A model generated the notes under the pieces. That model was given only the letters and a program-made list of their open reading frames with translations, did no database searches and was not told the DNA's origin. Of a DNA stretch of 25,109 nucleotides, positions 358 to 20,976 are shown piece after piece. The stretch's first letter is position 1; each line of letters opens with the position of its first letter. A program made the translations under genes and the position numbers. The DNA lies in IMG/VR virus record IMGVR_UViG_3300020411_002758, positions 1 through 25,109 of that record; one strand, 5' to 3'. The DNA is from a virus.

Positions 358-1497
358 ATGGCATATTGTAAAATAGTTTTAAACACAGGCTCGACTTTGG
401 TATATTCCACAGACGTTTTTAACATTATAACTGACGTTATTGATGGCACTATAGATAGTCAAGCAGATTTAGAAGCTGCAAGTTATAGTACGGGAGTAAA
501 TTTAGGAGCAAGTACCTATACTGGTACCAAACCTACGGCGGGGATCTATAGTATAGAGCAATTTAATAGTGGAGGCTCAAATTCGGGTAGTTGGTATGTA
601 AGTACCTATATTAAAAAATACCATTATGCAAAAAATCAGGTAAGCGGGTTTGATCCGTATCAGCATATTTGGTTAGAAACTGAGGATAGCTATGCATTTA
701 GATGGACTGTAGCGGATTCAGCGGGTAATCTCAAACTACCAACAAATAGTCGTAGTCGTTACTGGACTAAGTATAATAACGACACTAACTGGAAGGTCGG
801 TGATGAGACAATGGACTATATTCATAATATTCATATTATTTGTAATGATACTACTCTTGCTATTTGGGTAGAGTATAACACTATGGACGCGAACGGCGAA
901 GTTGCTTGGGTGGCAATTACTGACCATGAATTTAGACAAACTGTAGATACCTACATGCACTCTGCAGAAGCTACTTGGTATCCTGGTAGTGCTCATTGGG
1001 GTCTGTGGATGAACACGCTTCAAGCTGACGCTGGAGATTCGGTAGGAACAACAGATGATACACATGCTCACGCTAGTGGCAAGATAATTTTCTTAGATGC
1101 AGCAGGAGGTACCTGGCGAGCTCCAGATATCAATGATGAAAGTAATTATCATTGGCAGCCTGCTACGTCAGCATCACATGGTTATCCCATGCTGTATCCT
1201 GCACCCTATCTTAGTGTTCGCGCAACAAAAGCAAGTACTGGAATCGTACACCAATTAGTTCCATTAAATTATTTGGGTCAACATAATGATAATGTCACTT
1301 ATGGAGACGCAGACCCTGAGTTTGCTAGACTTATGAATTGGTATAGAACCACTGATAATTTAACAATGGGCACTAGAATACAAGTAGGAAGTGACTTCTA
1401 CAGAGTTTTCAGAGGATGGAACTGTGGAACAAGTGACCCAAACACTGCAGCACAAAAAGCTTGCGTTGCTTTTCCTGAAAATAACGTTCCATACTAA
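358..1497 (+). CDS. Putative virion/tail-associated protein, 379 aa
   Basis: A large acidic protein very rich in Thr, Asn, Ser, Gly, Trp and Tyr, the composition usual for phage tail-fibre or host-contact proteins. It has no signal peptide and no membrane segment. The C-terminal third (about residues 280-379) contains a compact region with ARLMNWYRTTDNLTMGTRIQ and a cysteine pair near the end, possibly a globular tip or capping domain. The start has GGAG 8 nt upstream of the ATG and overlaps nothing. It sits between a small unknown gene and an Ig-like protein, both on the plus strand, which fits a tail operon. The assignment as structural is inference from composition and context; no family was identified with certainty. 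Confidence 0.65.
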   Translation: MAYCKIVLNTGSTLVYSTDVFNIITDVIDGTIDSQADLEAASYSTGVNLGASTYTGTKPTAGIYSIEQFNSGGSNSGSWYVSTYIKKYHYAKNQVSGFDPYQHIWLETEDSYAFRWTVADSAGNLKLPTNSRSRYWTKYNNDTNWKVGDETMDYIHNIHIICNDTTLAIWVEYNTMDANGEVAWVAITDHEFRQTVDTYMHSAEATWYPGSAHWGLWMNTLQADAGDSVGTTDDTHAHASGKIIFLDAAGGTWRAPDINDESNYHWQPATSASHGYPMLYPAPYLSVRATKASTGIVHQLVPLNYLGQHNDNVTYGDADPEFARLMNWYRTTDNLTMGTRIQVGSDFYRVFRGWNCGTSDPNTAAQKACVAFPENNVPY

Positions 1498-1536
1498 GAT
1501 GTACTCAAAGGTATAAAAAACGGGGGATAACATAAC

Positions 1537-2313
1537 ATGGCAACACTAACTAGTACCCTACAATACTGGAACGGAACCATCGGCGCTCGAACCACTACTG
1601 TGAACGTTAACTCAGATGACACTCTTGTAATTACTATCTATAGTAACAATGAGACTTGGTATAGTGGAACTAATAGTAATTGTACCAGATCTCCAACACA
1701 AGGAAGTCATGCTGGCACCTGCACATTAAGTTTTAGTTCTTCGGGTAGTTACACTATACGTTTTTCCCATCAAAGGTGGGGCTGGGCATGGTACTATCAC
1801 ACGTATCAGGGTACAGTAACTGTAGTTAATCCTACTCTTACAGCTGTTGATATATCTCCAGCAACAGCAACTATAAACGATGGGGACGGGAGCCAGGCTT
1901 TTACAGCTAACCCAACTGGTGCGGCTAATGATATAGTTTATGCATGGTCACTATCAGGGGATACAGACAACGCTACTCTGAGTTCTAGTAGTGGTAATCC
2001 TGTTACAGTTACTACAACAAATGAATTAGACCATAGCCAAGAAACTATTACTATAACGGTAAGTGCTACTTCTAGTGCTGCTGGAGTTTCTTCAGGGATT
2101 ACAGATACTGCCACACTTACTCTAAATCACGCTACTACTCCTATAGGAGTCCTGCCACTAAATAATCAAGAAGTAGGTTTAATTGGAGAAGTTCAGCATA
2201 TAGGAGCCCCGCCACTAAATAACCAAGAAGTAGGTTTAGTTGGAGAACTTGAGACTCTAGGAGCTAAACCAAGAGAGATTTCAAGAAGTTCTGCACCAAT
2301 ACAACGTTGGTGA
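1537..2313 (+). CDS. Ig-like domain virion protein with C-terminal tandem repeat, 258 aa
   Basis: The N-terminal half (about 1-92) is Thr/Ser/Trp-rich beta-strand sequence. Residues about 95-198 read as a bacterial Ig-like/PKD-type domain: strand pattern beginning LTAVDISPATATI, a YAWSLSG core, then TITVSATS and TATLTL. Such domains decorate phage tails and capsids and often bind host surface glycans. Residues 203-240 are two 19-residue repeats sharing PLNNQEVGL, followed by a basic tail ending in RW. It is the last gene before the terminator at 2317-2349. The ribosome site is weak (GGGG about 11 nt upstream of the ATG). A host-contact or decoration role is inference; the Ig-like fold call is moderately sure. 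Confidence 0.7.
   Translation: MATLTSTLQYWNGTIGARTTTVNVNSDDTLVITIYSNNETWYSGTNSNCTRSPTQGSHAGTCTLSFSSSGSYTIRFSHQRWGWAWYYHTYQGTVTVVNPTLTAVDISPATATINDGDGSQAFTANPTGAANDIVYAWSLSGDTDNATLSSSSGNPVTVTTTNELDHSQETITITVSATSSAAGVSSGITDTATLTLNHATTPIGVLPLNNQEVGLIGEVQHIGAPPLNNQEVGLVGELETLGAKPREISRSSAPIQRW
2143..2256 (+). repeat. Two tandem 57-bp repeats inside the Ig-like protein gene
   Basis: Two adjacent in-frame units, 2143-2199 and 2200-2256, encode 19-residue repeats with a shared core PLNNQEVGL[IV]GE. Differences are mostly synonymous or conservative, so the repeat is kept as protein. A short third start (LGAKP) follows. Confidence 0.85.
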
Positions 2314-2599: not shown

Positions 2600-3556
2600 C
2601 TATTTAAAGATATCTTTCCAATTTCCACTAGTACTTGCTCGTGCATACTCAGTGGCCCTATTTTCAAAAAAGTTAGTATGTTCTACTCCATTTAGAATAT
2701 AGTCTAACCATGGTAATGGATTATTTTTACTATGAAAAATTGCTTTCATGCCTATTCCAAGAAGCCGCCGATCCGCAATATATCTAATATACTCTTTGAC
2801 CTCAGTAGCAGTCAATCCGGTTATTTCAGCACTTTCAAAACAAGTATCTATAAAAGCATCTTCTAGCTCAACAACGCGCTCTGCAGCACAGTAAATTTCA
2901 TACTTTAACTCATCGTTCCAAAGTTCTGGATTCTCACGAATAAACTCCTTAAAAAGTCTACTCATGCTTTCTACATGAAGAGTTTCGTCTCGAATACTCC
3001 ATGTAACAATTTGACCCATTCCTTTCATAAAGTTATGACGAGGAAAATTCAACAGTATAGCAAAGCTACTGAATAACTGTACGCCCTCTGTAAAGGCACT
3101 GTATACAGCCATGGTTTTAGCTAATCCTACATCCGTTTTTGTATCAAACATACTCAAGTACTCATGTTTATCTGACATGGATTTTACTTGAGTAAACATC
3201 TGATACTCACTATCGTCATAACCAAGCGTCTCTAGTAAAAGAGAATACGCTTCTTGATGTACTGCTTCCATGTTTGCAAAAGCAGATAACATCATTCTTA
3301 CTTCTGGCTGTTTAAATGTAGGCAAGTAGTGAGTAGCATACCCACAAGCCACATCTACGTCAGCCTGAGTAAAAAACCTAAAAATGTTTGACAATAGCTT
3401 TCTATTGTCATCACTTAATTTCTCTCTAAAATCTTTTAGATCATCCGCAAGCGGAACTTCGTCTGGAAGCCAGTGCATATGTTGCTGTGTTTTATACGCC
3501 TCAAATGCCCACGGATAATTAAAAGGTTTATAATAATTTCTTTCTTCTAATAACAT
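2600..3556 (-). CDS. nrdB: Class Ia ribonucleotide reductase, small (beta) subunit
   Basis: Makes and holds the tyrosyl radical/di-iron cofactor that starts NDP reduction in NrdA. At 318 residues it is close to the compact phage/eukaryote-type length. Visible di-iron ligands: an Asp at 66 or 68, E97 and H100 (EAVH), E157 (FTEGVQ), E191 and H194 (RDETLHVE). The radical tyrosine follows at Y104, four residues after the histidine, as in E. coli (H118/Y122). The C-terminal tail required for docking to NrdA is present. It lies 5 nt downstream of the 54-residue membrane protein that separates it from nrdA. All key residues are present, so it should be active. Confidence 0.95.
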   Translation of the reverse strand: MLLEERNYYKPFNYPWAFEAYKTQQHMHWLPDEVPLADDLKDFREKLSDDNRKLLSNIFRFFTQADVDVACGYATHYLPTFKQPEVRMMLSAFANMEAVHQEAYSLLLETLGYDDSEYQMFTQVKSMSDKHEYLSMFDTKTDVGLAKTMAVYSAFTEGVQLFSSFAILLNFPRHNFMKGMGQIVTWSIRDETLHVESMSRLFKEFIRENPELWNDELKYEIYCAAERVVELEDAFIDTCFESAEITGLTATEVKEYIRYIADRRLLGIGMKAIFHSKNNPLPWLDYILNGVEHTNFFENRATEYARASTSGNWKDIFK

Positions 3557-3560
3557 CTTT

Positions 3561-3725
3561 TCACCAATTATGTACTATATTTGTCATGATGAAAAAACAG
3601 GTCACAAAGTTGACAAGTACGATTAACGTTCTTAGTATTGCTACTATGTTATCATACTCTGCTGTTTTTTCATCACTAAAACTCCCTATTGTATATTTCC
3701 AAATAGTCCAGATTTTACCCCTCAC
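3561..3725 (-). CDS. Small single-span membrane protein between nrdA and nrdB, 54 aa
   Basis: Read directly from the minus strand. GTG at 3723-3725 opens a 54-codon frame overlapping the last codons of nrdA and ending (TGA) 4 nt before the nrdB ATG. AAGGA lies 10 nt upstream of the GTG, inside nrdA. The protein starts basic and aromatic (MRGKIWTIWKYTIGSFSDEK), has a short charged stretch, then a hydrophobic helix at about 27-50, and ends in NIVHNW. The layout (WKYTIGSFSDEKT..YDN, then a membrane helix) resembles small hydrophobic proteins I recall from other marine phages; that recollection is unverified. Function unknown. The tight packing on both sides and the ribosome site make it a real gene rather than a spacer. 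Confidence 0.75.
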   Translation of the reverse strand: MRGKIWTIWKYTIGSFSDEKTAEYDNIVAILRTLIVLVNFVTCFFIMTNIVHNW

Positions 3726-5490
3726 AGGCTAAGCATCCTTCTTCATCATCAAAATCGAATATATATTCTCTGAGTTTTTCATCCGATACTACTTCGGCTC
3801 TCTTCAGGGCTTCACTTCGTAGATAATAAAGAGTTTTTAATTTTCTAGTCCACGCCATTAAATGTACGTTATGTAATTCTTGTTTTGATACATCAGCAGG
3901 AAAAAACATATTTACACTTTGTGCTTGACAAATATGTTCTTGCCTATCTGCGGCATGCTCTATTACCCATCTTTGATCAATTTCTACTGCTGTTTTAAAG
4001 ATGTCTTTTTCATATTCGTCTAAACAGTCAAGGTGTTGTACTGATCCGTTATTAGTAATAATAGACTTCCATATTTCTTCTGTGTTTTCCCCTTTACCTT
4101 CCAATAGTTCTTCCAAGAAAGGATTTTTTAAGAGAGAACTTCCTGTCTTAGTTTTCTGTGTAAATGCGTTAGCCCTGTAAGGCTCAATGCTAGGGGAAGT
4201 GTTGCCACAAACAATACTACTGCTAGCATTAGGAGCAATGGCAAGCAGATGAGCGTTACGGACACCACCACCGTACCACTTACTGTCTGGGCATTCACCA
4301 CGCTCTTCTGCCAACTCTCGAGTAGCTTTGGATGCTTCAGTTTTGATGTGTGTGAAAGCCCTAAGGTTAAAACTTTTTGCCAAAGCACTCTCAAATGGTA
4401 TTCTTCGTTTCTGGAGGTAGGCGTGAAAACCCATCGCTCCGAGACCCAACGATCTTTCTTGTGATGCAGAAAACCTCGCACGCGCCAATTCATCTGGCGC
4501 ATTGTTGATAAAATACTCGATAACATTGTCGAGCATGCGTATAAGGTCAGGAATAAAAGTCTCGCAAGTTGACCACTCATCATATTTCTCCAAATTAACA
4601 CTTGACAAACAACAGACAGCAGTCCGTTCATTATTTGTAGGAAGGGTTATTTCACTACAAAGATTACTCTGATTAACTTTTAGTCCTAATAACTTTTGGT
4701 ATTCGGGCAAAGCTTCGTTTATAGTATCTTCAAACATTATATACGGTTCGCCAGTTTCTACTCGATTCTGAATAATTTTTATCCATAATACTTTTGCAGA
4801 AATAGTCTTTGTAATCTCCCCCGAATGTGGGTCAATTAGATCCCAACTATCGTCAAAACCTTCAATATTTGTAGCATTTGCGATAGTCTGCATAAACTTA
4901 TCAGATATTATAACAGCGTGGTGAAGATTAATAGACTTGCGATTAATGTCGCCTCCAGTAGGTTTGCGTACATCCAAAAATTCCTCAATCTCAGGATGAT
5001 CGATTGGTAAATATGCTGCATAAGAACCTCTCCTAGTTACTCCTTGACTGAACGCGAGCATTTCAGCATCAACAACTTTCAAAAAAGGTATAACTCCTGT
5101 ACTTTCACTTCCATGAGATGTTTTAGATCCAACACTTCTTACATCTCCCCAATATCCACCAATACCTCCACCTACAGAAGAAAGCCATGCATTCTCTGTA
5201 TAGTGTCCCGCAATTCCACCACGACTATCTGGTACGTAGTTTAAAAAACAACTAATTGGTAGCCCTCTACTACTTCCTCCATTAGAAAGAACTGGCGTAG
5301 AGTACATAAACCAGAGCTGGCTTGCGTAATCATAAATACGCTGTGCCATCTCATCAGAGTCTGAGAAGATTTTCGCCGCACGTGCGAAAGCCTCTTGAGG
5401 GGACTTCTCGTGATCTAATAAGTACCTGTCATTTAGTGTTTTAATACTAAATTCAGGTAAATTTTCGTCTCTTTGATAATTTATTTGCAC
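3715..5490 (-). CDS. nrdA: Class Ia ribonucleotide reductase, large (alpha) subunit, no ATP cone
   Basis: Reduces ribonucleoside diphosphates to deoxy forms with NrdB and an external dithiol donor. Visible catalytic features: C81 (GLPISCFLN) and C293 (AVCCLS) as the active-site disulfide pair; N276, C278 and E280 (NLCSE) as the radical cysteine motif; the LAIAPNASSSIVCGNTSPS phosphate-binding loop at 416-434; Y555/Y556 for radical transfer; and the C-terminal shuttle pair C586/C589 (CLAC). At 591 residues it is about 150 shorter than E. coli NrdA, and the missing part is the N-terminal ATP cone. It should therefore lack overall-activity inhibition by dATP. The start is GTG (5488-5490), overlapping by one base the TAG of the upstream 5' nuclease; the next Met is residue 48, too late. 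C-terminal codons overlap the 54-aa membrane gene. Confidence 0.95.
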   Translation of the reverse strand: MQINYQRDENLPEFSIKTLNDRYLLDHEKSPQEAFARAAKIFSDSDEMAQRIYDYASQLWFMYSTPVLSNGGSSRGLPISCFLNYVPDSRGGIAGHYTENAWLSSVGGGIGGYWGDVRSVGSKTSHGSESTGVIPFLKVVDAEMLAFSQGVTRRGSYAAYLPIDHPEIEEFLDVRKPTGGDINRKSINLHHAVIISDKFMQTIANATNIEGFDDSWDLIDPHSGEITKTISAKVLWIKIIQNRVETGEPYIMFEDTINEALPEYQKLLGLKVNQSNLCSEITLPTNNERTAVCCLSSVNLEKYDEWSTCETFIPDLIRMLDNVIEYFINNAPDELARARFSASQERSLGLGAMGFHAYLQKRRIPFESALAKSFNLRAFTHIKTEASKATRELAEERGECPDSKWYGGGVRNAHLLAIAPNASSSIVCGNTSPSIEPYRANAFTQKTKTGSSLLKNPFLEELLEGKGENTEEIWKSIITNNGSVQHLDCLDEYEKDIFKTAVEIDQRWVIEHAADRQEHICQAQSVNMFFPADVSKQELHNVHLMAWTRKLKTLYYLRSEALKRAEVVSDEKLREYIFDFDDEEGCLACEG

Positions 5491-6329
5491 TATGCTATCC
5501 CTTGTAAAATATTACATTTCTGTTGAATGTCTTTTATATTTTCTTCTCCAATGGCTTCGTTACAAAAAGCCAGTAAATCCATAATTTCAAAGTTAAGAAG
5601 CAGTCTTTCTTTGTGGTCATTTAAACTGTGAATAAACTTGTATCTACTATCTATAGGACAAGCATCGTATATATCAAATAAAGTACCGTATTTCTTAACT
5701 AGATCATTTGCGCGTTTTGGACCGATTCCTGGAATACCCGGAATGTTGTCCCCGCTGTCGCCAGTTAGGCATTTAATTGATATATAATCCTCTACAATAA
5801 AATCGTGAGACTCAGACCAGTTTTCTGCTGTAGTCTCCTTACGATTAACATAAGAAAATCTTGACACATTGTCTTTTATTAGTAAGTCCCAGTCTCTATC
5901 TGAGCTAACTAACCAAATATGCTCTGCTTCTAGATTAACACTTAAATACCCTGCAATATCATCTGCCTCTACTCCGTCGTAACGTAACACAGTACAGGTT
6001 TCTTCTAAGCATCTTAGGGTATACTCCATCTCTTCATAAAAACGTTCAAAAGCTAATTTTTCTTCTTCTGTTTGTTTTTCGTATCTTTCCTTTCTACTTT
6101 GTTTATATTCTGGATAGAGATTTTTTCTATATGTACTGTTCCCCTTGTCAGAAGCTATAATTATTTTTCCACAGTTATAGCTCCTAGCAAGGGAGTGAAC
6201 AGTCTTTATATAATCTTCAGAAAAATCTGATCTATTTTGGTGTTTCCACCTGAAACCTAAGTTTAAAGCATCTAAAATTAATACTCTGTCTTCACTGGGT
6301 TTTTGCAAGTTCTGAAACGTTTTCGCCAT
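5490..6329 (-). CDS. 5'-3' exonuclease / flap endonuclease (T4 RNase H / Pol I 5' nuclease family)
   Basis: Removes RNA primers and 5' flaps during lagging-strand maturation. Its polymerase partner at 12983-15265 lacks this domain. Acidic metal-binding motifs appear in family order: LDALN (D20), the ASDKGNSTYRKNLYPEYK helical-arch entry, VEADD, SSDRDWD, then LTGDSGDNIPGIPGIGPKRA, which contains both the last acidic site and the helix-two-turn-helix DNA-binding motif. At 279 residues it is the usual phage length. The start overlaps the end of the PD-(D/E)xK nuclease gene by 38 bp, and its stop overlaps the nrdA GTG. It belongs to the same transcript as SbcCD and RNR. No key residue is missing. 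Confidence 0.93.
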   Translation of the reverse strand: MAKTFQNLQKPSEDRVLILDALNLGFRWKHQNRSDFSEDYIKTVHSLARSYNCGKIIIASDKGNSTYRKNLYPEYKQSRKERYEKQTEEEKLAFERFYEEMEYTLRCLEETCTVLRYDGVEADDIAGYLSVNLEAEHIWLVSSDRDWDLLIKDNVSRFSYVNRKETTAENWSESHDFIVEDYISIKCLTGDSGDNIPGIPGIGPKRANDLVKKYGTLFDIYDACPIDSRYKFIHSLNDHKERLLLNFEIMDLLAFCNEAIGEENIKDIQQKCNILQGIA

Positions 6330-6762
6330 TTATAAATCTCGGTTTTTCGTTAATTAACCACTCTTCTGCTAACATTACATAGCAGTCTAAGTGTCCTACA
6401 AACATATACTTCTTTGTTTTTTGAGGTTTGTCTTTTACAACAACAAAAAATTTAGATCTGTTATATTTGAAAAATAAAACAGGTTTCTTACCTACCTGTT
6501 TTGCTTGTCGGGTGGATTGTTCCCACCATCTAATAAATTCATTAGACTTATTAGTTAAAACTTTGTCGTCAAAGTGAGAATTTTTATAAAACTTCACTTC
6601 AATGCAATAATTCATTGGGGTATCTGGTATAAATATATCCCCTTTCATAAAAGGTAATGCTCCTGACATTGGGACTCTTTCAAAGGCAAGTCCTGTATGT
6701 TTTCTTAACATCTCTCGAATTTGTTTTTCTCCCATGGCTCCTTTAGCTCGGGAATCAACCAT
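6292..6762 (-). CDS. PD-(D/E)xK endonuclease, Holliday-junction-resolvase-like
   Basis: A 156-residue protein with the nuclease pattern of the Hjc/PD-(D/E)xK type. An N-terminal helix carries SRAKGAMGEKQI (E12); GD follows at 41-42 (MKGDIFIP) and ExK at 55-57 (CIEVKF); then a helix with WWEQSTRQAKQ and strands PVLFFKYN and KFFVVVK. These residues form the one-metal cleft that cuts branched DNA. It sits directly after SbcC and before the 5' nuclease, so a role in resolving recombination or replication junctions is likely, but junction specificity is inferred. A different PD-(D/E)xK substrate, such as flaps or host DNA, remains possible. The gene starts 14 nt after the SbcC stop, with AGGAG upstream. 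Confidence 0.78.
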   Translation of the reverse strand: MVDSRAKGAMGEKQIREMLRKHTGLAFERVPMSGALPFMKGDIFIPDTPMNYCIEVKFYKNSHFDDKVLTNKSNEFIRWWEQSTRQAKQVGKKPVLFFKYNRSKFFVVVKDKPQKTKKYMFVGHLDCYVMLAEEWLINEKPRFINGENVSELAKTQ

Positions 6763-6776
6763 TATTAGTCTCCTTT

Positions 6777-8582
6777 TTACTCTAATCTACTAATATTAGA
6801 TTCTTTTATAACTTCGACCTTCTCCAATAAAGGATGGGTCCAACCGTGGGATACTATATAAGTATTGAGCCCTTCTTCTTCAAGCAGAACTTCTACTAAC
6901 TTCTCACGGCCTGTTTCATCTAACACATTAATAACTTCATCTAAGAATAAAACATTTAATCTACTCTTAGAAATACTACTCATTAGTTTTCGTATTGATA
7001 CTAATGTTGCAGTGTTTACTCTCGCTAGTTCTCCACTACTTAAAGCTAGAATGTCCACGCTTTTACCGTTGTCTGATAAGTCTACATTGAGTTTGTCGTT
7101 TTCTACAACAAAATTTAAATTAAACCTACCATCACTTAGCTCTGCTAAGTATTCATTGGTTAAGTCTTCAAAATCTTTAACTAAGTTTTCTAACTTATAG
7201 GCTATTAGGCCATTATTAGAAAATGCTCGTTTAAGTATTTCTAAGTTTGTGTGAACTTTTTCTTGCTTAGATAAGTCTTTCTCAAGTCCTTTAAGTTGTT
7301 CTGTAAACTCTTCGGTTTGTTCGAGGATGACTTGGATTCTTGTATTGTGTTTTTGTCTTTTTGAATTTTCATCAATAACCTCCTGTAGATTACTTCTAGC
7401 ACTTTTTACTTTATCCATGAGTATTTTTATATTGTCTTTCAACTCATTGGCATCTAATATATCTGATGGCAAAGTAAGGTCTACTCTGCCATACAGATCC
7501 TCAAAATCTCTTTGCATTTTTTGTTTACTCGTAATTATCGAGTTAGTCATTTTTATCTGCTCTATTTTTTGCTCAAGATTTTTTACCTCGCTTTCCGCCT
7601 TTTGGCTTCTTTCGTGGCTTTGGTTTTTTAGGTTTTGAATTACCGTATGGTTTACCTCCTGCTGGCATGTCGGGCACTCCTTTTTTAGACTACTTAAATG
7701 AGTAATCTCCTTGGCGGATTCTTGTATAATTCGCCTATTTATTCCTAGTTCAGACTGTAAATCATCATAGGACCTAATTCCTTTCTCTTCTTCTCCTTTA
7801 AGCGTAAAATCGTTAGGAGATATATCAGCAAGTAGTTCTCTGTATGTATTATTTTCTCGAATTTTTTTATTTTTTTCGGAAATATTTTCAAAATCTAGTC
7901 GTAACGAACGTATTTTCTTCTCATCTTCTTCCGAAATTTCTGGCAATTTTAACTCGGGAAGTATGTTGGTAGACTCTAATTTATTGTCTTCGAGCCATTT
8001 TTCAACAGTATCACACTTACTCTGAATACTTGTAATTTCATTACTGATTTCTTTGTCAATTTCTCGAAAAATATCATAATACTTACTGTATTCTTCTACT
8101 CCAAATAGATCCACTAAAAACTTTTTCCTATTAGCATCCGTAGCAGTTAAAAACTGTAAACTAGCAGTTGTATTTTGGTACACTAACTGAGAGAAGGTTT
8201 TAAAATCTAAACCTAAAATATCTTCCAGAGTTTTATATGTATTAGTTGCTGTGTGGCTAGAAATATCTTCTTTACCTTTAAACAGCTTTACCTTTATAGT
8301 ACCTCTACTACGTCTTACTTCGATTCTATATTTTTCTTTTTCCACAGAAAAATCAAGGAATATATTATATCCCTTATTAAATTCTCGATTCTGTATGTCA
8401 GCTTTCTTGATACCTTTTGAGTTCTTATTATATAATACCTCTTCAAGTATTAGAGGTATAGAAGACTTACCGGCACCATTTTTTCCTAAAAGCTGTGTTA
8501 AAGTAGTATTCTCTAAGTCTATTGAATTATTACTACCATAACTAAAACAATTATCCCAATGCAATTTCTTTAGAGTAATCAT
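6777..8582 (-). CDS. SbcC/Rad50/T4 gp46-like recombination ATPase
   Basis: The ATPase arm of a Mre11-Rad50-type nuclease that resects DNA ends for recombination-dependent replication. Domain order: Walker A GKNGAGKS (33-40); N-lobe with YQNTTASLQFL Q-loop region (about 130-150); coiled-coil arm about 165-460 broken by a zinc hook CPTC (303-306); ABC signature LSSGELARV (514-522); Walker B LNVLFLDEV (542-550); and switch histidine H579 (VSHG). Its 601 residues match T4 gp46 (short arm) rather than bacterial SbcC (about 1000). The start overlaps the SbcD-like gene by 32 bp, which fits a stoichiometric pair. All ATPase motifs are intact. Confidence 0.93.
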   Translation of the reverse strand: MITLKKLHWDNCFSYGSNNSIDLENTTLTQLLGKNGAGKSSIPLILEEVLYNKNSKGIKKADIQNREFNKGYNIFLDFSVEKEKYRIEVRRSRGTIKVKLFKGKEDISSHTATNTYKTLEDILGLDFKTFSQLVYQNTTASLQFLTATDANRKKFLVDLFGVEEYSKYYDIFREIDKEISNEITSIQSKCDTVEKWLEDNKLESTNILPELKLPEISEEDEKKIRSLRLDFENISEKNKKIRENNTYRELLADISPNDFTLKGEEEKGIRSYDDLQSELGINRRIIQESAKEITHLSSLKKECPTCQQEVNHTVIQNLKNQSHERSQKAESEVKNLEQKIEQIKMTNSIITSKQKMQRDFEDLYGRVDLTLPSDILDANELKDNIKILMDKVKSARSNLQEVIDENSKRQKHNTRIQVILEQTEEFTEQLKGLEKDLSKQEKVHTNLEILKRAFSNNGLIAYKLENLVKDFEDLTNEYLAELSDGRFNLNFVVENDKLNVDLSDNGKSVDILALSSGELARVNTATLVSIRKLMSSISKSRLNVLFLDEVINVLDETGREKLVEVLLEEEGLNTYIVSHGWTHPLLEKVEVIKESNISRLE

Positions 8583-9513
8583 GAAATGTACTTAATATAT
8601 CCTTTACTTTATTATCTTCTAGCTCTAGAATGTAGCTTAAATATTCTACTAATTCTTCCTCTATTGTCATTTCTTTGTCTAATACTAGAGCTGTTTCTGT
8701 TTTTCTTTTAATAACTTTCTTATCCAACAGGTCAGAGTTAGCAACGTTTGATAGCTCTGCTATATCTCCTTCTATCTCATAGATTGTATGGTCAAACTCT
8801 GTTGGAACCATCTCTTTTTCGCTTGACACAGTTTTTCTTAATAACTGTGGTAAATCATCGAATTTATACCACTTCCAACTAATAGCAGCGTCCAGTTCGA
8901 TAATTATGTATCCTGTTTCTACTTTATTCCTGTGAAACTGAGTTGTCATAGGACTTCCAGGATACACTATATTTAATTGTGTATTTGTATGACTATGTAA
9001 GTCACCTGCAAATATCACAGGAAAAGGTTCAAATCTTTTTAAATCTACCTCAGGTGTAACATGAGGTGGGATAGCTCCCCTAACATGAGTAAATAACGGT
9101 TGCCTAATATTGAAATCCTTTGCATGCCATTTACCATGTAATTCACAGTAGGGGAGTATCCCGAAATGATCTTCAGTATAGTTAGAAACTATAACCTCTA
9201 TTAACGGATTCACCTCCTTAGATGCTTTTTTCAATTGTGTTAGAAAAGTTTGATGTTTTTTAGTGGCTTCATGATTCCCGTCGTATATAAGGGTACGCAC
9301 CCCCACGCCACTGATGAACTCAAAATATAGCTCTAACTCTGTCATGGAAGGAATCCGATCAAACAGATCCCCTCCGATGACATGAAGATCAACACTTTTT
9401 TCTAGTTTATGTATCTTTTCAAAGAACATAGTATATCGTTCACGCGCCCACTCCTCCGGCACGTTTTTCTGACCAATTTTTAAGTGCCAGTCGGCGGTAA
9501 ACAATATTTTCAT
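8551..9513 (-). CDS. SbcD/Mre11/T4 gp47-like nuclease subunit
   Basis: The metallophosphatase nuclease partner of the SbcC-like ATPase. Phosphodiesterase motifs appear in order: DWH at 8-10 after a hydrophobic strand, GGDLFD at 47-52, DGNHE at 78-82, then FTHVRG and AGDLHSH around residues 140-175. These residues hold two Mn ions for exo/endonuclease activity. The C-terminal part (about 215-320) is the capping and ATPase-binding region. At 320 residues it is the length of T4 gp47. It starts at the stop of the ssDNA-binding protein gene (TAATG overlap) and overlaps the SbcC gene by 32 bp. Confidence 0.93.
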   Translation of the reverse strand: MKILFTADWHLKIGQKNVPEEWARERYTMFFEKIHKLEKSVDLHVIGGDLFDRIPSMTELELYFEFISGVGVRTLIYDGNHEATKKHQTFLTQLKKASKEVNPLIEVIVSNYTEDHFGILPYCELHGKWHAKDFNIRQPLFTHVRGAIPPHVTPEVDLKRFEPFPVIFAGDLHSHTNTQLNIVYPGSPMTTQFHRNKVETGYIIIELDAAISWKWYKFDDLPQLLRKTVSSEKEMVPTEFDHTIYEIEGDIAELSNVANSDLLDKKVIKRKTETALVLDKEMTIEEELVEYLSYILELEDNKVKDILSTFHDYSKEIALG

Positions 9514-10142
9514 TAGTAAGGTAAGTCCTCTAGTTCTTCTTCTACGTCCTCAGGAACTTCTGCAGAACCTCTACTGACTCCTTCTAAGAAGTCTTTTTGA
9601 GATTCTGGAGTAGGTCTAGGAAGAAGCTCCTCCATAGACTTTAGTCCTTCGACTAGTTTTTGTTCGTCTTTGTCTAAAGCACGAACTTTACATTTGAGAG
9701 TTTGTAACTGATACTCAACATTATAAACGTTAGGGCCAGTCTTAACTCGTTTGAATTTTACATCCCATCCAGTTTCTGGATCTGTGGGATCACCGAGGTC
9801 TTCTGCTGCAAGCATGACTTGCTCAAGAAGTTTCTTTTTAAGATTAAGAATCTTAACCTCGCCATTGTGAATACACTGAATGGCATATGCCCATCCACAC
9901 TTTTTCTCCGGATGGTACTTTCGTACCCAATCAGTTTCTACATTATCGAAAGTCTCAGAGTCTCGATTAAATGCTAAACACTCCATAGGAATGTTCTTAT
10001 TGTTCTCACCTTGTACCCAGTATACATAACGAGGAAGAATATCCCCAACTAAACGTACACTGTTATCTCCATCCACATACTGGTATTGTACCAATGAGGA
10101 TTTTTGTGCAGAACCTTTTGCGTCTCCAAATTTTAACGCCAT
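9513..10142 (-). CDS. Putative single-stranded DNA-binding protein (gp32 role)
   Basis: The start is the ATG giving MALKFGDAKG, because AAGGAG lies 7 nt upstream; a longer frame to 10187 has no ribosome site and would overlap the previous gene. The 209-residue protein has a basic N-terminus and a central beta-rich aromatic region (NSVRLVGDILPRYVYWV, then CGWAYAIQCI), which suits an OB-type fold. Its C-terminal tail is Glu/Asp-rich and ends in DLPY. An acidic tail after an aromatic, basic core is the standard design of phage SSBs. The context (UvsW-like helicase upstream, SbcCD downstream) agrees. I see no clear Cys4/His zinc site like that of T4 gp32. The family call rests on layout and on resemblance to marine phage SSBs that I recall; not proven. 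Confidence 0.7.
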   Translation of the reverse strand: MALKFGDAKGSAQKSSLVQYQYVDGDNSVRLVGDILPRYVYWVQGENNKNIPMECLAFNRDSETFDNVETDWVRKYHPEKKCGWAYAIQCIHNGEVKILNLKKKLLEQVMLAAEDLGDPTDPETGWDVKFKRVKTGPNVYNVEYQLQTLKCKVRALDKDEQKLVEGLKSMEELLPRPTPESQKDFLEGVSRGSAEVPEDVEEELEDLPY

Positions 10143-10143
10143 A

Positions 10144-10536
10144 TTATTTTCTCCTTGCGTCTTCATACTTAAAGTGGATGTTTCCATCCTCTAAAGTAAG
10201 TAGTCTGTTGTTGTTAATTGCGTCTTCCTCTATATTAGTATAAAGGAAGTCTAGTGTTGTACTACCTTCATGGATATACTTAGCATAACTACGACGACTT
10301 GCTAAAGAAAAATATTGCATAATCTCAGAAGTCGTGTAGTTTTTGTATTCATAAAAGATAGGTGCAGCGTTTACTAAAAAAGAATCACCTTCATAGTTCT
10401 TGCTTATGTAACGATACAAAGGATCTTTCCTATTACTAGGAACAACCTTGAAAGTTAACCATCGCATAATTACAAAGATATCTCTTTTGTTACCTGCTGT
10501 ATCTTTTACGATCTTTTTCCAATTAAATAGTACCAT
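10144..10536 (-). CDS. Hypothetical protein between UvsW-like helicase and SSB, 130 aa
   Basis: Not recognised. The N-terminal part is basic (FNWKKIVKDTAGNKRDIF), followed by MRWLTFKVVP and an aromatic-rich middle; the end is charged (DARRK). There is no membrane segment. It ends 2 nt before the SSB start and overlaps that gene's ribosome site. The ATG lies only 3 nt past the -10 box of the promoter at 10539-10567, so a transcript from that promoter would begin inside this frame. Either the gene is mainly read from upstream transcripts, or translation starts further in; Met24 at 10467 is the first in-frame ATG but has no good ribosome site. The coding call is sound; the start is uncertain. 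Confidence 0.72.
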   Translation of the reverse strand: MVLFNWKKIVKDTAGNKRDIFVIMRWLTFKVVPSNRKDPLYRYISKNYEGDSFLVNAAPIFYEYKNYTTSEIMQYFSLASRRSYAKYIHEGSTTLDFLYTNIEEDAINNNRLLTLEDGNIHFKYEDARRK

Positions 10537-10538
10537 AT

Positions 10539-10567
10539 ATTATATCAAAGTGGGCAGGAAATGTCAA
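10539..10567 (-). promoter_or_regulatory. Sigma-70 promoter before the SSB/SbcCD/RNR operon
   Basis: Minus strand: TTGACA (10562-10567), a 17-bp spacer ending in TTTGA, and TATAAT (10539-10544), which is full consensus. The upstream flank ATAGTTC is shared with the promoters at 21004 and 22089. It lies in the 42-bp gap after the UvsW-like gene. The ATG of the next gene starts only 3 nt past the -10. Confidence 0.88.
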
Positions 10568-10578
10568 GAACTATTTTT

Positions 10579-11859
10579 CTATATGTTTTTGATTTCATAT
10601 CCCTGCTTCATGTAGTATCCTGTACGATTATTCGCTTGCTTTCTAGCGGTATTACCTTTTAGGTTAATATCTATAATTACAGGGTCTTTCTTTCCTTCTT
10701 TAATTCTTATAACTCGGCCTATTAACTGAGTTAATAAAGGATCATTGTTTACAGGAGTACCAAGTACAAGACAACTTAATGCGTCCAAAGATACTCCCTC
10801 TGAAAATATTGATTGTGTGCCAAATAATACATTTTTATCTTTATTGATTTCTTCCATCATAGCAGGTCTTTCTTCGTGTGGAGTTTCTCCTGTAATCACA
10901 ATAGCACTGTCTCCTACAAGCTTTGCACATTTTTTTAAAAATTCTACTCTATCTCCTACCACTAAAACTTTATGCCCCTTTGCTGCGTAGGTTGCTGCTA
11001 TAATAGCTACTTCGTGTTGATACTCCTCATTATAAGCTAGATGATTTATCTTTTTTGCCCATGGAGTTCCCCCTCCATCTAAGAAACGTATACTAGAATG
11101 AATTACGTGAATCTTAGGTGGCATATAATTTTCTTTAGGAGGAAAGTAAACTGTAGGGCTAAAATAATCTCTAAACACTACATGTTTTCCGTCTTTTCTC
11201 TCAATCGTTCCTGACAGGCCAATCTTATATCGTGCACGACATTTATCAATAATTTTTCTAAACGTCGGGGAGGATACATGGTGCATCTCATCGAGTATAA
11301 CTGTCCCAAATTCATTTATTATGTCGGGCACTCTCCTTGTGAGTGTTTGTACATTACCTATGACGATTGGACCTGTTAGGTCGAACTTTCCACTACCTAT
11401 TATGGCAGGTTTAATTCCAAATACTTTTTCTACTTCACGTTCCCACTGACTTCTTAGTGCTACAGTATGAACAATTACTAATGTTTTCTGTTTAAGTTTG
11501 CTAGCGATAGCTAAACCTGTAAATGTCTTACCCCAACTGACCCAAGCGTTGATTATACAACTGTCTTCCACTGCTTCATAGACTTCTTTCTGACTCGCAC
11601 GTAATTCATAACGAAATTCTGGGAAGTCCATCGGCGCAAGCTTGCGTTTATCGCTTATTTCATACCCCTCAGGTACTAAATCGAATCGACCAGACGGAAC
11701 TGTTATCGTACCTTGCTTAACTATGCCCATATTTTTAATAATCGTAGGCGGATCAAGAGGATTATACGATGGTATAGAGTATGTCAACTCTTTATCGATA
11801 ATCCCTTGAGTGGCAGGATCTATGTTCATGTAAATTTTATCAGATACTACTGCTTTCAC
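10579..11859 (-). CDS. UvsW-like superfamily 2 DNA helicase
   Basis: Remodels branched DNA: fork regression, D-loop removal and the switch to recombination-dependent replication in T4. SF2 motifs: Q-type lead ELRASQKEVYEA (85-96), motif I with GKT at 110-112, motif Ia LVIVHTVAL, motif II DEMHH (190-194), motif III SGT (216-218), motif V region SEGVSLDAL, motif VI QLIGRVIRI (378-386). Motif I is odd: AWVSWGKT replaces the usual PTGxGKT, though the catalytic GKT is kept. It has 426 residues (T4 UvsW about 500), with a short N-terminal region. The start is GTG (11857-11859), just after the previous gene's TAG; a good ribosome site is lacking, so translation is probably coupled. Confidence 0.9.
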   Translation of the reverse strand: MKAVVSDKIYMNIDPATQGIIDKELTYSIPSYNPLDPPTIIKNMGIVKQGTITVPSGRFDLVPEGYEISDKRKLAPMDFPEFRYELRASQKEVYEAVEDSCIINAWVSWGKTFTGLAIASKLKQKTLVIVHTVALRSQWEREVEKVFGIKPAIIGSGKFDLTGPIVIGNVQTLTRRVPDIINEFGTVILDEMHHVSSPTFRKIIDKCRARYKIGLSGTIERKDGKHVVFRDYFSPTVYFPPKENYMPPKIHVIHSSIRFLDGGGTPWAKKINHLAYNEEYQHEVAIIAATYAAKGHKVLVVGDRVEFLKKCAKLVGDSAIVITGETPHEERPAMMEEINKDKNVLFGTQSIFSEGVSLDALSCLVLGTPVNNDPLLTQLIGRVIRIKEGKKDPVIIDINLKGNTARKQANNRTGYYMKQGYEIKNI

Positions 11860-12913: not shown

Positions 12914-13002
12914 CCATTCACTATATTAGCTATAATTATTATACAAGTGAATACGCCTAAGATTTCGTAAAACCACTTCCATCTAATTAACCATTTCTCC
13001 AT
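12904..13002 (-). CDS. Putative single-span membrane microprotein after DNA polymerase, 32 aa
   Basis: Read from the minus strand. An ATG at 13000-13002 in the last codons of the polymerase gene, in another frame, opens 32 codons ending in a TAG that overlaps the next gene's start. The peptide has a basic, Trp-rich amphipathic start (MEKWLIRWKWFYE), a hydrophobic helix (ILGVFTCIIIIANIV) and ends NGWY. The space between polymerase and next gene is otherwise unexplained, and the overlaps at both ends are typical of this operon. A GGAAAG about 12 nt upstream is a weak ribosome site. Its end, NIVNGWY, recalls NIVHNW at the end of the 54-aa protein between nrdA and nrdB. Confidence 0.55.
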   Translation of the reverse strand: MEKWLIRWKWFYEILGVFTCIIIIANIVNGWY

Positions 13003-15265
13003 ATTGTTTCTCGAACTTTCCAAAGCTGTAATCTTCTCCTACATCGAAGTCACAGCCTACAGGGGCTCCTTCTATCACACAACCTTCACGGGGTTTTTGA
13101 ACGAAGTATTTTAATTTTTCGCAGTAGTACTCAACTTCTGCGTCGGGTACTTCTGCGAGTATCGAGTCGTGTACAAGGGCAAAGATTCTACTCTTTAACC
13201 CAAAGTTTTTAATATGAGTATTCATATCAATAGCGCCAAGTAAATTAATATCACTAGCAGTAGATTGTACTAAGAAATTAATACCGGAGCGCACTTCATG
13301 AGAAGCAACTCCTTTATCACTACTAAAAACATTAGGGAGCCTGCGCTTTCTTCCAAAAATAGAATAGATATAACCATTCTTAGAAATCTCTAGTTTTTTG
13401 TCCTCTAGCCACTTCTTTAGTTTAGAAAACTCTCCGAAGTAATCGTTAATTACTTCCTGAGCTTCTGAAATAGAAAAGTATGTACCAGAGTCTTTAGTTA
13501 CTTGAGCAGAAATCTTACTAGGACCTGCTCCATACATAATACCAAAAGTAACAGCTTTTGCTGCTTGTCTTTTAACAGAGTAATACTCTGCAACTTCTTC
13601 CACTTCACAAGGAAGATGAAATACAGTTTTAGCAATGGTACTATGAAAGTTTCCTCCTTGACGGAACACATCTTGTAATTTTTTATCCTTAGCAAGAACT
13701 GCTGCTACATACACCTCGGCAGTGGTCAAATCCATTGCAACAATCTGATGGCCTTCTTTGGCCTTGATACACCCCTTGACAATAGGATTGTCACGAGGAA
13801 TTTGTTGCATATTTAGTTTGCCGGAGCTGCTGAGACGACCAGAAGTAGTGCCGTGCAGATTAAAATTAGTACGGAGATGGCTGTCCCTATCCAACTGCGG
13901 GATGATTTTATCAAGGTATGTATTCTTAATCTTGCTCTTCTGACGAATATCAAGAATGAATTTGGGAACCTCATGGTCTTCTCCTAGTTGTTGAAGCACT
14001 TCCGCATCTGTAGAATGTGCTCCTGTACCGGTCTTCTTTCCTGTAGGATTTAGACCGATAAAATCGAACAGTAACTTTCGTAATTGAACGGTACTGTTCG
14101 GATTGAATTCCTTGTCTTGAAATCTTTCAAACTCTTTAACTTCTTTGAATTTGTACAGTTCAAGCTCTGCATTACGTATATCATTCTCCATTAACTCTTG
14201 AGCTACCTCAAGGCGTTTTCTATCGAACGGCACACCAGAGTCTTGAACGTCTTTTAAGAATTGCATACCAGGAACTAGAATTTGACGATAGACTCTTCTA
14301 ATCAAAGGGTCTTTGTCAAGCTCTTCTTTAAAATGTTTGAAGATACGAAGAGTTACAACTGCATCCATAGAAGCATAAACTTGTATCAAATCAAACGGTA
14401 TCATTTCAAAGGTAAAGTCTCCTTTAAGGAGGCCATTCCTTCTACAATAGTCATCTATGAACTCATACATAGGCTTTTCATAATCTCCATAGGGAGTATG
14501 TTTAATAGCCAATCCTTTAAGTCCATGATTTCCAGGCACTTCGTTTAGCATATATGACATAAGCATTGTATCATCTATTCTAGGAAATTCAAAGTTAAAA
14601 TGATACTCAAGCATTGCTAAGTCGAACTTAGCATTGTGCATAATAACACTCTTCTCAATAAAGAGTTTCTGCATTAGGCTAGTTACTTCGTCGTCTATAC
14701 AATCAGTACTAATATATACTCCTGTATCTTCTTCATACGCCATACTAATCCCAAGAATATAGCCGTCCCGAGGATACAACCCTGTAGTCTCTGTGTCAAC
14801 TGCAACATGGGTAGTATTACTATCAAGGGCTTTTTGAACCCACTCAAGAGCTTCTTGAGTGTCAGTAATACCATAAAACTTAGACTCATCTATTTTCACG
14901 TTAGTCAACTCGCCAGAGATGTAAGCTTTTAACTTAGACACTGCATCATCCCAAGTATCTTTAGACTCAGGCTTAAAAGCGAGCATGCCTGGGTTAATTA
15001 CAGGAATAAATTTATCTGAGATAAGTCTACCACAATGTTCTGTAATAGATCTTTCTTTGGTAAAATGTTGAAGTGCTTCAGACCCTACTAGTATTATAAA
15101 GTCATAAGCATCAATGTCAATATCTATATCAACATCACGCTTAAGAATCTTTTTCTTAGTTCTATCTGAACATAAAGCAAACCGATCAAATTGAAAATCA
15201 TTCTCGAAATGACGAATAAAATCGGTTTTACTTTCTACTTTTTCAACAAGTGCTACATTAGCCAT
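12983..15265 (-). CDS. polA: DNA polymerase I, family A, with 3'-5' exonuclease
   Basis: The replicative polymerase, 760 residues. An N-terminal region (1-130) without motifs precedes the proofreading exonuclease: D157/E159 (DTET), N211-D215 (NAKFD), Y297-D301. Polymerase motif A is DLTTAEVYV with D512 and E517, motif B is KRQAAKAVTFGIMYG (K570, F574, Y578), and motif C is VHDS (H699, D700). Motif A departs from the textbook DYSQIELR, and motif C has Ser where Glu is usual; the metal aspartates remain. F574 aligns with E. coli Phe762, the state reported to go with lytic rather than temperate marine phages. There is no 5' nuclease domain; that function lies at 5490-6329. It overlaps the primase by 8 bp. 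Confidence 0.96.
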   Translation of the reverse strand: MANVALVEKVESKTDFIRHFENDFQFDRFALCSDRTKKKILKRDVDIDIDIDAYDFIILVGSEALQHFTKERSITEHCGRLISDKFIPVINPGMLAFKPESKDTWDDAVSKLKAYISGELTNVKIDESKFYGITDTQEALEWVQKALDSNTTHVAVDTETTGLYPRDGYILGISMAYEEDTGVYISTDCIDDEVTSLMQKLFIEKSVIMHNAKFDLAMLEYHFNFEFPRIDDTMLMSYMLNEVPGNHGLKGLAIKHTPYGDYEKPMYEFIDDYCRRNGLLKGDFTFEMIPFDLIQVYASMDAVVTLRIFKHFKEELDKDPLIRRVYRQILVPGMQFLKDVQDSGVPFDRKRLEVAQELMENDIRNAELELYKFKEVKEFERFQDKEFNPNSTVQLRKLLFDFIGLNPTGKKTGTGAHSTDAEVLQQLGEDHEVPKFILDIRQKSKIKNTYLDKIIPQLDRDSHLRTNFNLHGTTSGRLSSSGKLNMQQIPRDNPIVKGCIKAKEGHQIVAMDLTTAEVYVAAVLAKDKKLQDVFRQGGNFHSTIAKTVFHLPCEVEEVAEYYSVKRQAAKAVTFGIMYGAGPSKISAQVTKDSGTYFSISEAQEVINDYFGEFSKLKKWLEDKKLEISKNGYIYSIFGRKRRLPNVFSSDKGVASHEVRSGINFLVQSTASDINLLGAIDMNTHIKNFGLKSRIFALVHDSILAEVPDAEVEYYCEKLKYFVQKPREGCVIEGAPVGCDFDVGEDYSFGKFEKQYGEMVN

Positions 15266-16100: not shown

Positions 16101-16129
16101 ATTATCTCAAATTTTAAGAAAAATGTCAA
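16101..16129 (-). promoter_or_regulatory. Sigma-70 promoter for the primase-polymerase operon
   Basis: Minus strand: TTGACA (16124-16129), 17-bp spacer ending TTTGA, GATAAT (16101-16106), with extended -10 TGA. The -35 box contains the TGA stop of thyX. The primase ATG begins at the expected transcription start. Confidence 0.88.
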
Positions 16130-16767
16130 GATTTAATTATGGGAAAGATAGAAGCAATCACCTCTGCTACTGCTAATGCAATTTCTGAGTGCTCTAGTTG
16201 AGTGCCGTTTTCTTTTCTTAATTCAACATAATGAACCCAGCTTCTTAATGTACCATTCACATAAAGCCTACTTACTGTATTTCCTTCAGGCAGTATTGCT
16301 CTTGCTTGTTCTTTAGCTATACCGTTTTTAATAGCCCACTCGTAAGCCTCTGTTGCAGTTTCTATTACTACTTCCTGCTTCCAAGCCCATTCTTCACGTA
16401 ATTTTGCATCTTCTGTAGGAATACTATTTTGTCTGTTCTTAGGATCTTGTAGTCTTGCTTCCCGTATCTCAAACTGTAAGTCTTTTGTAGGATCTGCGTA
16501 TCTTTGAGAAAACTCTTGAAAAGCAAAACTTCTATGTCTTAGTATCTGACGTGCAATATCACGAGTTGTTTCAATCTCTAAACACGCACTTACCATTTCT
16601 AAAGGAGACCAGTGTTTGTGTTTGATTAAATACTTTACTAATTTTTCACTAGTTTCTTTATTATTTTGGTTTCCAGGATTACTAACTCTAGCACAATAAG
16701 CTACCAAATCTAATGCTGATTCATTGTAGTCAGGCGCTTGACTGTGACTAATTAATTTAACTTTCAT
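16126..16767 (-). CDS. thyX: Flavin-dependent thymidylate synthase
   Basis: Methylates dUMP to dTMP using FAD, NAD(P)H and methylene-tetrahydrofolate. The signature RHR (77-79) followed by FAFQEFSQRY, with S87 and R89, is the ThyX motif RHRx7S. The C-terminal half contains RAILPEGNTVSRLYVNGTLR, the second conserved block. At 213 residues it is the standard length. The ribosome site AAGGAAA lies 6 nt upstream of the ATG. It lies between a 26-residue membrane peptide and the primase promoter, and its stop codon falls inside that promoter's -35 box. Together with RNR and MazG it feeds dTTP to phage replication independently of host ThyA. Confidence 0.95.
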   Translation of the reverse strand: MKVKLISHSQAPDYNESALDLVAYCARVSNPGNQNNKETSEKLVKYLIKHKHWSPLEMVSACLEIETTRDIARQILRHRSFAFQEFSQRYADPTKDLQFEIREARLQDPKNRQNSIPTEDAKLREEWAWKQEVVIETATEAYEWAIKNGIAKEQARAILPEGNTVSRLYVNGTLRSWVHYVELRKENGTQLEHSEIALAVAEVIASIFPIIKS

Positions 16768-18431: not shown

Positions 18432-18465
18432 CCAAAGAAAGGCGGACACCGCTAAGTATCCGCCT
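18432..18465 (-). terminator. Intrinsic terminator after four-module HTH gene
   Basis: On the minus strand a 10-bp stem (arms 18456-18465 and 18440-18449, with one G-U pair) with a 6-nt loop is followed by TTTCTTT. It is GC-rich in an AT-rich region and lies 22 nt past the stop of the 241-residue gene. Confidence 0.8.
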
Positions 18466-19213: not shown

Positions 19214-19945
19214 TCAAATCTCCAAAATATTTGTTACTATTTTTATTCCCATTGCCTCTGCTTTTTTAGTTTTGCTTGAAGCAATTCCACTTTCATTAAC
19301 TAAGACTTGCGTCTTTTTAGTTATGTTATCTTTCAACACAAAGCCTTTTTCAGCTAAGAACGGTTCTGCTTCTTTCTTGGTTTTAAAAGAAGCTAGCTTA
19401 CCAGATATTACAACCTCTACCATATTATGACTAAGGTTTGTTGTTACCTTCCAAGAGAAAGGCAGTAACTTCCAGTTTGTAGTCCTCTTCCAATTAAGAA
19501 GATTTTCCGTTGTTTTTGGTCCGAGTCCTGCTTTATTACAAGTTTCCGTTGTAATCTCATCTATGTGAGATACATACTTACATATCTTCTCTGCAGCAGT
19601 CCGGCCAAACAAGGGTATAGAAAATGCTGGGAGCAAGTCTTGTAATCCTGCTCTTTTACTGTATTCTATTTCTGACAGCAGTTTGTCACTAATCAACTTA
19701 CTACCCAGCTTTAACTCTACAAAATCTTTATCTATGGTATAAATTTCGTCAAGAGACTGTAGCCCTAACTTAGCTATTGTTTTTGGTCCCAAACCTTTTA
19801 TTCGTAAGGAACTAGCAAAGTGTTGTATAATCTTGTCACCTTTTGCACCACAGCTAGAATTGATACAATACAGCATATCGTTTCTCCACTCAACCTCTCC
19901 CAAACAACTTGGACATTGTGTAGGTGGAGTTATTTCTTTTAGCAT
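19214..19945 (-). CDS. NAD+-dependent DNA ligase, C-terminal half (Zn finger, HhH, BRCT)
   Basis: A four-cysteine zinc finger (C16/C19...C32/C37 in the frame counted from the TTG at 19960; 11, 14, 27 and 32 from the ATG) is followed by helix-hairpin-helix repeats (SLRIKGLGPKTIAKLG; AGLGPKTTENLLNWK) and a C-terminal BRCT domain (VVISGKLASFKTKKEAEPFL... SSKTKKAEAMGIKI). This is exactly the C-terminal half of bacterial LigA; the catalytic half is the neighbouring upstream gene. It has its own promoter (19972-20001) and a ribosome site GGGAAAG before the ATG at 19945, which I chose over the TTG at 19960. The two proteins presumably assemble into one ligase; phage T5 is also annotated with separate ligase A and B subunits. 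Confidence 0.9.
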   Translation of the reverse strand: MLKEITPPTQCPSCLGEVEWRNDMLYCINSSCGAKGDKIIQHFASSLRIKGLGPKTIAKLGLQSLDEIYTIDKDFVELKLGSKLISDKLLSEIEYSKRAGLQDLLPAFSIPLFGRTAAEKICKYVSHIDEITTETCNKAGLGPKTTENLLNWKRTTNWKLLPFSWKVTTNLSHNMVEVVISGKLASFKTKKEAEPFLAEKGFVLKDNITKKTQVLVNESGIASSKTKKAEAMGIKIVTNILEI

Positions 19946-19971
19946 GTGGTTCTTTCCCAAAGTGAGTATAT

Positions 19972-20001
19972 ATTATAACAAAAGTAATCAATAAAAGTCA
20001 A
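19972..20001 (-). promoter_or_regulatory. Sigma-70 promoter between the two ligase genes
   Basis: Minus strand: TTGACT (19996-20001), 18-bp spacer and TATAAT (19972-19977), preceded by TG. It starts right after the TAA of the ligase N-terminal gene; the ATG of the C-terminal gene lies 27 nt after the -10, like most of its sister promoters. Confidence 0.85.
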
Positions 20002-20004
20002 GAT

Positions 20005-20976
20005 TTATTTTTTCACACGTCCGGTAATTCTAGGAATTATATCTCCCGATCTAATCACACTTACCTGACATCCGATTTCTAGATCCAAACTTTCGATGTA
20101 TTTCATGTTATGTAACGTAGCTCTACTTATAGTAGCGCCATCTATTTCTATAGGCTCTAGTATTGCTACAGGAGATATTACTCCTGATTTTCCTACTTGC
20201 CATTCAACGTCTGTAAGGGTTGTTTCTACAGCTTCCTTTCTGACTTTATACGCAAAAGCCCCTCTAGGATGGTGCGCTGTATACCCCAACTTCTCAAAAA
20301 TTTTGTTAGAGTCTAGCCTCCAAACTATACCGTCTTGAGGAAACTCATTCCAGTCCCTATCCAGAACAGTGCTAAATCGTAGACCTTGTAATTTTGTCAT
20401 ATCTCCAGCATAGCTGTTAGATAAGTAAGGCATAACACCGTGTGCGACAAAGGTCAAGTCACGAGAGAGAAACTCGTTTATATCCTTCAGGTTCAAAGCA
20501 CCTGCAGCATAATTACGAGCATTGGGTATTGTTTTGGGAGAGACAATCTCTCCCGTGACTTGAATTTCTTTGTCTGTTATAGGCACTGTTTTAGGTACTA
20601 GAAAGCATACTGGAGAAAGAAACTTAGAAGTAATATCTATACCTTCTTTTCCATCTCCGCGTGTTAGTACTCTTTCTAATACTCCCTGTTTATACTGTAA
20701 AGCTACTGATGCTCCATCAAGTTTTGGAGTAGTCAAAACACTTTTATCAGAATAAGAAGCTAGAGGGTGCTCTCCCGAGTCTGAGAAGTGCTTTTGTAAG
20801 CTATACATTCGATACATATGCTTAACTCTAGCACCATCAAGATTATATCCTACTTTATTCCAGTCATGCTCTTCTGCCAAACGATCAAACTGTTCGTCAG
20901 ACATAATAGGAGAACCTTCATAATAAGCTTTACTTGCTTTTTCTAGTAGCTCTATAACTTGTGCTTTTAATCTCAA
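20005..20976 (-). CDS. NAD+-dependent DNA ligase, N-terminal catalytic half
   Basis: Seals nicks via an enzyme-AMP intermediate. The NMN-binding domain Ia region is AYYEGSPIMSDEQFDRL (17-33). The adenylation lysine is K85 in TPKLDG, followed by RGDGKEG (106-112), TGEIV (141-145), the ARNYAAGALN block (153-162), DGIVWRLD (215-222) and FAYK (241-244). The OB domain is present: WQVGKSGVISPVAILEP and RATLHN, ending RSGDIIPRITGRVKK. The gene stops exactly where LigA would continue into its zinc finger, which is the next gene. At 323 residues it is about half of LigA. The start is TTG (20974-20976) with GAGGAAAG upstream; it lies 28 nt after the -10 of its promoter. Confidence 0.92.
   Translation of the reverse strand: MRLKAQVIELLEKASKAYYEGSPIMSDEQFDRLAEEHDWNKVGYNLDGARVKHMYRMYSLQKHFSDSGEHPLASYSDKSVLTTPKLDGASVALQYKQGVLERVLTRGDGKEGIDITSKFLSPVCFLVPKTVPITDKEIQVTGEIVSPKTIPNARNYAAGALNLKDINEFLSRDLTFVAHGVMPYLSNSYAGDMTKLQGLRFSTVLDRDWNEFPQDGIVWRLDSNKIFEKLGYTAHHPRGAFAYKVRKEAVETTLTDVEWQVGKSGVISPVAILEPIEIDGATISRATLHNMKYIESLDLEIGCQVSVIRSGDIIPRITGRVKK

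Follow-up and report, generated by a model that had tools for sequence, protein, structure and literature searches.

Why should a phage divide its NAD+-dependent DNA ligase between two genes and carry a promoter-like sequence between them? This arrangement is found in a 25,109-base fragment of an uncultivated T5-like phage (an IMG/VR virus record; the whole fragment is called "the window" below). LigA and LigB are two separate, intact open reading frames (ORFs), both on the minus strand, with a stop codon, a promoter-like site and a ribosome site between them. It is very probable that the two proteins are the subunits of a T5-type heterodimeric NAD+-dependent ligase that seals nicks, and that the middle promoter starts a ligB-D5 operon.

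The two ligase genes and their surroundings

The genes in this part of the window are arranged in the order PC4, LigA, LigB, D5, helicase, primase and polymerase, which is the order found in T5 and its relatives, and the phage lineage of the window belongs in the T5-like group. No match was found when cultured phages were searched for near DNA relatives of the window. The replication block is extended by class I ribonucleotide reductase subunits, an exonuclease, SbcC/SbcD-like proteins, an ssDNA-binding protein and a helicase (2600-11859, minus strand), and ThyX is situated at 16126-16767 (Pfam). Two ORFs of 379 and 258 amino acids at 358-2313 (plus strand), oriented opposite to the replication block, gave no match in a PHROGs search. 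The polymerase may start further downstream than its ORF (12983-15265), because a perfect TTGACA-16-TATAAT sequence lies within the 5' part of that ORF (15093-15120, minus strand). For GCGCGGTG, which we take to be the T5 nick consensus, the window has four one-mismatch sites against 2.5 expected, which is no signal.

LigA (20976-20005, minus strand) has 323 amino acids and consists of domain Ia, a nucleotidyltransferase domain with the KLDG motif (K85) and an OB fold. Its start codon is TTG, with GAGGAAAG at 20988-20981. The best PHROGs match is phrog_3359 (E 4.7e-102), and the Pfam matches are DNA_ligase_aden (E 1.8e-27) and DNA_ligase_OB (E 1.6e-28, residues 251-322). The features of an NAD+-dependent ligase are all present: domain Ia ahead of the nucleotidyltransferase domain (AYYEGSPIMSDEQFDRL), the acceptor lysine of KxDG with the other nucleotidyltransferase motifs, and the OB fold. 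Among the positions that never vary across 81 LigA proteins are Y18, K85, D87, G88, R106, G107, E143, D215, G216 and K244; D31, which like Y18 belongs to domain Ia, is found in 80 of the 81. In an alignment by eye with E. coli LigA, the domain Ia positions of His23 and Tyr35 are occupied by Tyr and Phe in the LigA of the window, which counts against the two-subunit ligase reading. A protein search with LigA found T5-like phages at about 37-48% identity and other phages below 33%.

LigB (19945-19214, minus strand) has 243 amino acids when counted from the ATG at 19945; the ORF in full, from TTG 19960, occupies 19960-19214 and has 248. It carries the remaining domains of an NAD+-dependent ligase, namely a four-Cys Zn finger, an HhH region and a BRCT domain, and the four Cys are invariant in all 62 LigB proteins compared. 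The best PHROGs match is phrog_3498 (E 7.2e-51), and LigB also corresponds to the C-terminal region of phrog_3869, a family of full-length ligases. Pfam alone gave LigB no match; its matches came from PHROGs, from PDB sequences and from the fold.

The cut between the two proteins is at the border of the OB fold and the Zn finger, which falls at roughly residues 390-400 in the E. coli enzyme. The match of LigA to the E. coli protein runs up to residue 389 and that of LigB begins at residue 400; LigB also aligns along residues 400-650 of 1dgs. On the 656 positions of phrog_3869, LigA covers 11-383 and LigB covers 388-645. As the halves abut at 383/388, nothing of substance has been lost at the cut. 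Two adjacent genes divided at this border are the arrangement of a T5-type heterodimeric ligase, and the single chain that is usual in bacterial LigA is not required of the NAD+-dependent ligase family.

Structure models were built from alignments of 29-30 relatives. The LigA model (pLDDT 89.9) has 9i5i_A as its best PDB match. The LigB model (pLDDT 90.1) is closest to 9hu3_B, also matches 2owo and BRCT domains, and agrees with the LigB chain 9hu3_F to 2.0 A over 166 columns. The high full-length rmsd of the models against these chains, which come from the phage PR1 ligase described below, probably reflects a different placement of domains. LigA, with its OB fold, would bind NAD+ via domain Ia and become adenylated at Lys85 of KLDG, and LigB would use its Zn finger, HhH and BRCT domains to close the clamp around nicked DNA. 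Jointly the two proteins would seal nicks in the phage DNA, both those of replication and, as in T5, those of the packaged genome.

Promoter-like sites and the ligB-D5 unit

Along the minus strand, the LigA stop codon (20007-20005) is followed by TTGACT (20001-19996), an 18 nt spacer and TATAAT (19977-19972). This promoter-like site (20001-19972) has 11 of 12 consensus matches. Beyond it lies the ribosome-binding-like GGGAAAG of LigB (19958-19952, minus strand), read from the sequence. The promoter-like site before LigA, TTGACA-17-GATAAT (21032-21004, minus strand), also has 11 of 12 matches, with TG ahead of the -10 box, and sits 27 nt before the TTG start codon.

LigB probably starts at ATG 19945 rather than at TTG 19960. 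The ATG is favoured because it stands 6 nt after GGGAAAG and 26 nt after the end of the -10 box (the family median is 27 nt). TTG 19960 nearly coincides with the predicted transcription start, so a length of 243 amino acids is probable.

The gene for a D5-like DNA-binding transcription regulator (19212-18487, minus strand) starts 1 nt past the LigB stop codon. Its match, phrog_323 (E 4.5e-44), is annotated "transcriptional regulator, D5-like", and this HTH protein is the homologue of T5 D5. A terminator-like hairpin with an 11-pair stem (18440-18465, minus strand) closes the unit. In relatives the spacing between LigB and D5 is at most 33 nt, D5 follows LigB directly in all 104 that have D5, and the hairpin after D5 is found at 61 of 66 loci compared with 1 of 66 shuffled. 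LigB followed by D5 is also the T5 replication gene order. Since the promoter-like site before LigB, the adjoining D5 and the hairpin recur, ligB-D5 is, as judged from sequence, a conserved transcription unit. LigA would be driven by its own promoter, and the middle promoter would start a separate ligB-D5 operon ending at the hairpin, from which LigB and the D5 regulator would be made together. The middle promoter would be explained most simply by the supply of D5, ligB being the first gene of the operon.

These results agree with the first-pass annotation, which had placed the division at the OB/Zn finger border, had read the gap, with its stop codon, TTGACT-TATAAT promoter and GGGAAAG site, as something other than a simple frameshift, had given each gene its own promoter and ribosome site, and had placed LigB for co-transcription with an HTH protein.

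Conservation in relatives and alternative explanations

The survey set comprised IMG/VR relatives and cultured T5-like phages, with 135 distinct complete LigA genes, each read to its stop codon. In none of the 135 is LigA fused to LigB. A LigB promoter was counted when 10-12 of 12 positions matched within 200 nt upstream of LigB; by this measure a near-consensus sigma-70 site is found at 107 of the 109 distinct loci with LigB in reach, with a 17 nt spacer in 101 of the 107. LigB was not seen at 26 of the 135 LigA loci; in most of these cases this is because the available sequence stops within 2.5 kb. For 13 of the loci lacking LigB the entire record was examined, and LigB was found in one only (L024), about 5 kb downstream of LigA; none was seen in the other 12, most of which end soon after LigA. 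At L034 and L151 LigB is absent over about 4 kb.

In marine relatives the gap between LigA and LigB is an insertion hotspot of 0.2-5 kb (L017, L022, L026, L030, L032, L045, L048, L065 and L097). An ORF of 121-145 amino acids (KVGIASGKDW..IKRSRGF) recurs there, often immediately before LigB; two copies tested against Pfam gave no match. The other inserts encode SET domain, 2OG-Fe(II) oxygenase, carbamoyltransferase, radical SAM/SPASM, QueC-like and peptide deformylase proteins. In Klebsiella phage vB_KpnS_Uniso31 (ON637170.1, 52087-53046) the LigA gene is labelled "putative tail protein", which seems to be a misannotation.

According to the first-pass annotation, an assembly error or a recent mutation would have to be suspected if reads showed one intact frame or if relatives carried a full-length ligase gene. 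There is no second read of this phage, which is represented by a single IMG/VR fragment without a near DNA match among cultured phages. Nevertheless, a sequencing error, misassembly or recent break is exceedingly improbable and is rejected by the 135 distinct unfused relatives, by the recurrent promoter-like site before LigB, by the 0.2-5 kb of other genes within the gap of several relatives, and by the retention of a start codon, a ribosome site and the conserved residues in both halves. The full-length phage ligase that was inspected, a single 1899 nt gene of Rhizobium phage RHph_TM21B found with LigA as the query, is of the same enzyme family as the LigA of the window, but it comes from another phage family and has 32% identity. 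Were the promoter match incidental, LigA, LigB and D5 would be on one transcript. This is very improbable, even though the window yielded no terminator between the two ligase genes, and promoter-like sites on both strands of the scanned half-window are not enriched overall (30 found and 34.4 expected in shuffles). The six half-window sites that match at 11-12 of 12 positions all belong to the minus strand, the strand of the ligase genes. The site before LigB combines an 11 of 12 match with a near-fixed distance to the LigB start, and its counterparts in the relatives have to be set against shuffles of 57 distinct gaps, in which 10 of 12 matches were reached in 3.9% of trials. Where the gap of a relative is short, a score of at least 10.5 is reached by 97.7% of the LigA-LigB gaps compared with 0.2% of equal-length windows of LigA coding sequence, the mean best scores being 11.5 and 7.7. 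T5 and PR1 both carry annotated promoters in the corresponding position.

A third explanation is that LigB is made in excess for a role of its own outside ligation, for example as a nick- or DNA-binding protein working with D5. The promoter-like site is more constant before LigB than before LigA, where it is found in 71 of 106 relatives, and LigB invariably adjoins D5, the pair being closed in most cases by a terminator-like hairpin. However, the need for D5 can by itself explain the promoter, and promoter-like sites are common before other genes of the region. LigB also retains the ligase order of Zn finger, HhH and BRCT, and the PR1 structure shows its homologue together with LigA on nicked DNA. 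Such a separate role is therefore unlikely. We likewise regard as doubtful the broader proposal that across T5-like phages LigB uses the D5 promoter, exceeds LigA in amount and has a second nick- or DNA-binding role with D5 that prevents re-fusion of the two genes. The preferred reading remains a two-subunit ligase with the middle promoter serving ligB and D5.

Comparison with known ligases

A two-gene ligase with an inner promoter is the ordinary arrangement in T5 and its relatives and is already known. The T5 record (AY543070, Demerecviridae) has, like the window, ligA and ligB as two genes for the NAD-dependent ligase subunits A and B, and an annotated promoter before ligA. The precedent that the first-pass annotation had seen in T5 therefore holds. 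Its view that a dedicated promoter between the parts is unusual does not: the T5 record has two, P-K28b and P-K28a, PR1 has one, and nearly all of the surveyed relatives have one by sequence match. The T5 gap is 202 nt long, whereas the window has a single promoter-like site in a gap of 59 nt. In both phages D5 comes directly after ligB (overlapping its end in T5) and is followed by the D6 helicase; D5 is annotated in T5 as a regulator of replication and late transcription. Protein identity between the window and T5 is only moderate (31% for LigB).

The new part is a modest extension, namely that the same ligB-D5 unit recurs in uncultivated relatives. Throughout the T5-like group the ligase is consistently encoded by two genes with an inner promoter and is not a broken gene. 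That ligB and D5 so constantly form one unit prompts the question, open to testing, of how the subunits are dosed.

The closest structural counterpart is the two-chain NAD+ ligase of Providencia phage vB_PreS_PR1, seen on nicked DNA in PDB entries 9hu3 and 9i5i. The entries are titled "PR1 phage heterodimeric DNA ligase" and were assigned to PR1 by 100% identity over 321 residues. Among the papers covered by the literature search, none described these entries or a two-subunit phage ligase. LigA identity between the window and PR1 is only about 40%. By analogy with these structures, LigA and LigB of the window would associate and use NAD+ to seal nicks; the heterodimer, the nick sealing and the activity of the promoter are all suggested by relatives. 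PR1 has an annotated promoter in the gap between ligA and ligB, where the window has its promoter-like site, but also an annotated terminator after LigA, which has no detected equivalent in the window.

The bacterial enzymes (E. coli 2owo and T. filiformis 1dgs) have the same domains in the same order as are found across the two phage halves. In bacteria, however, LigA is one chain of about 670 residues and in the phages LigA and LigB are two chains. The stretch from domain Ia to KLDG is shorter in the phage of the window than in bacterial LigA, the lysine being K85 in the former and residue 115 in the latter.
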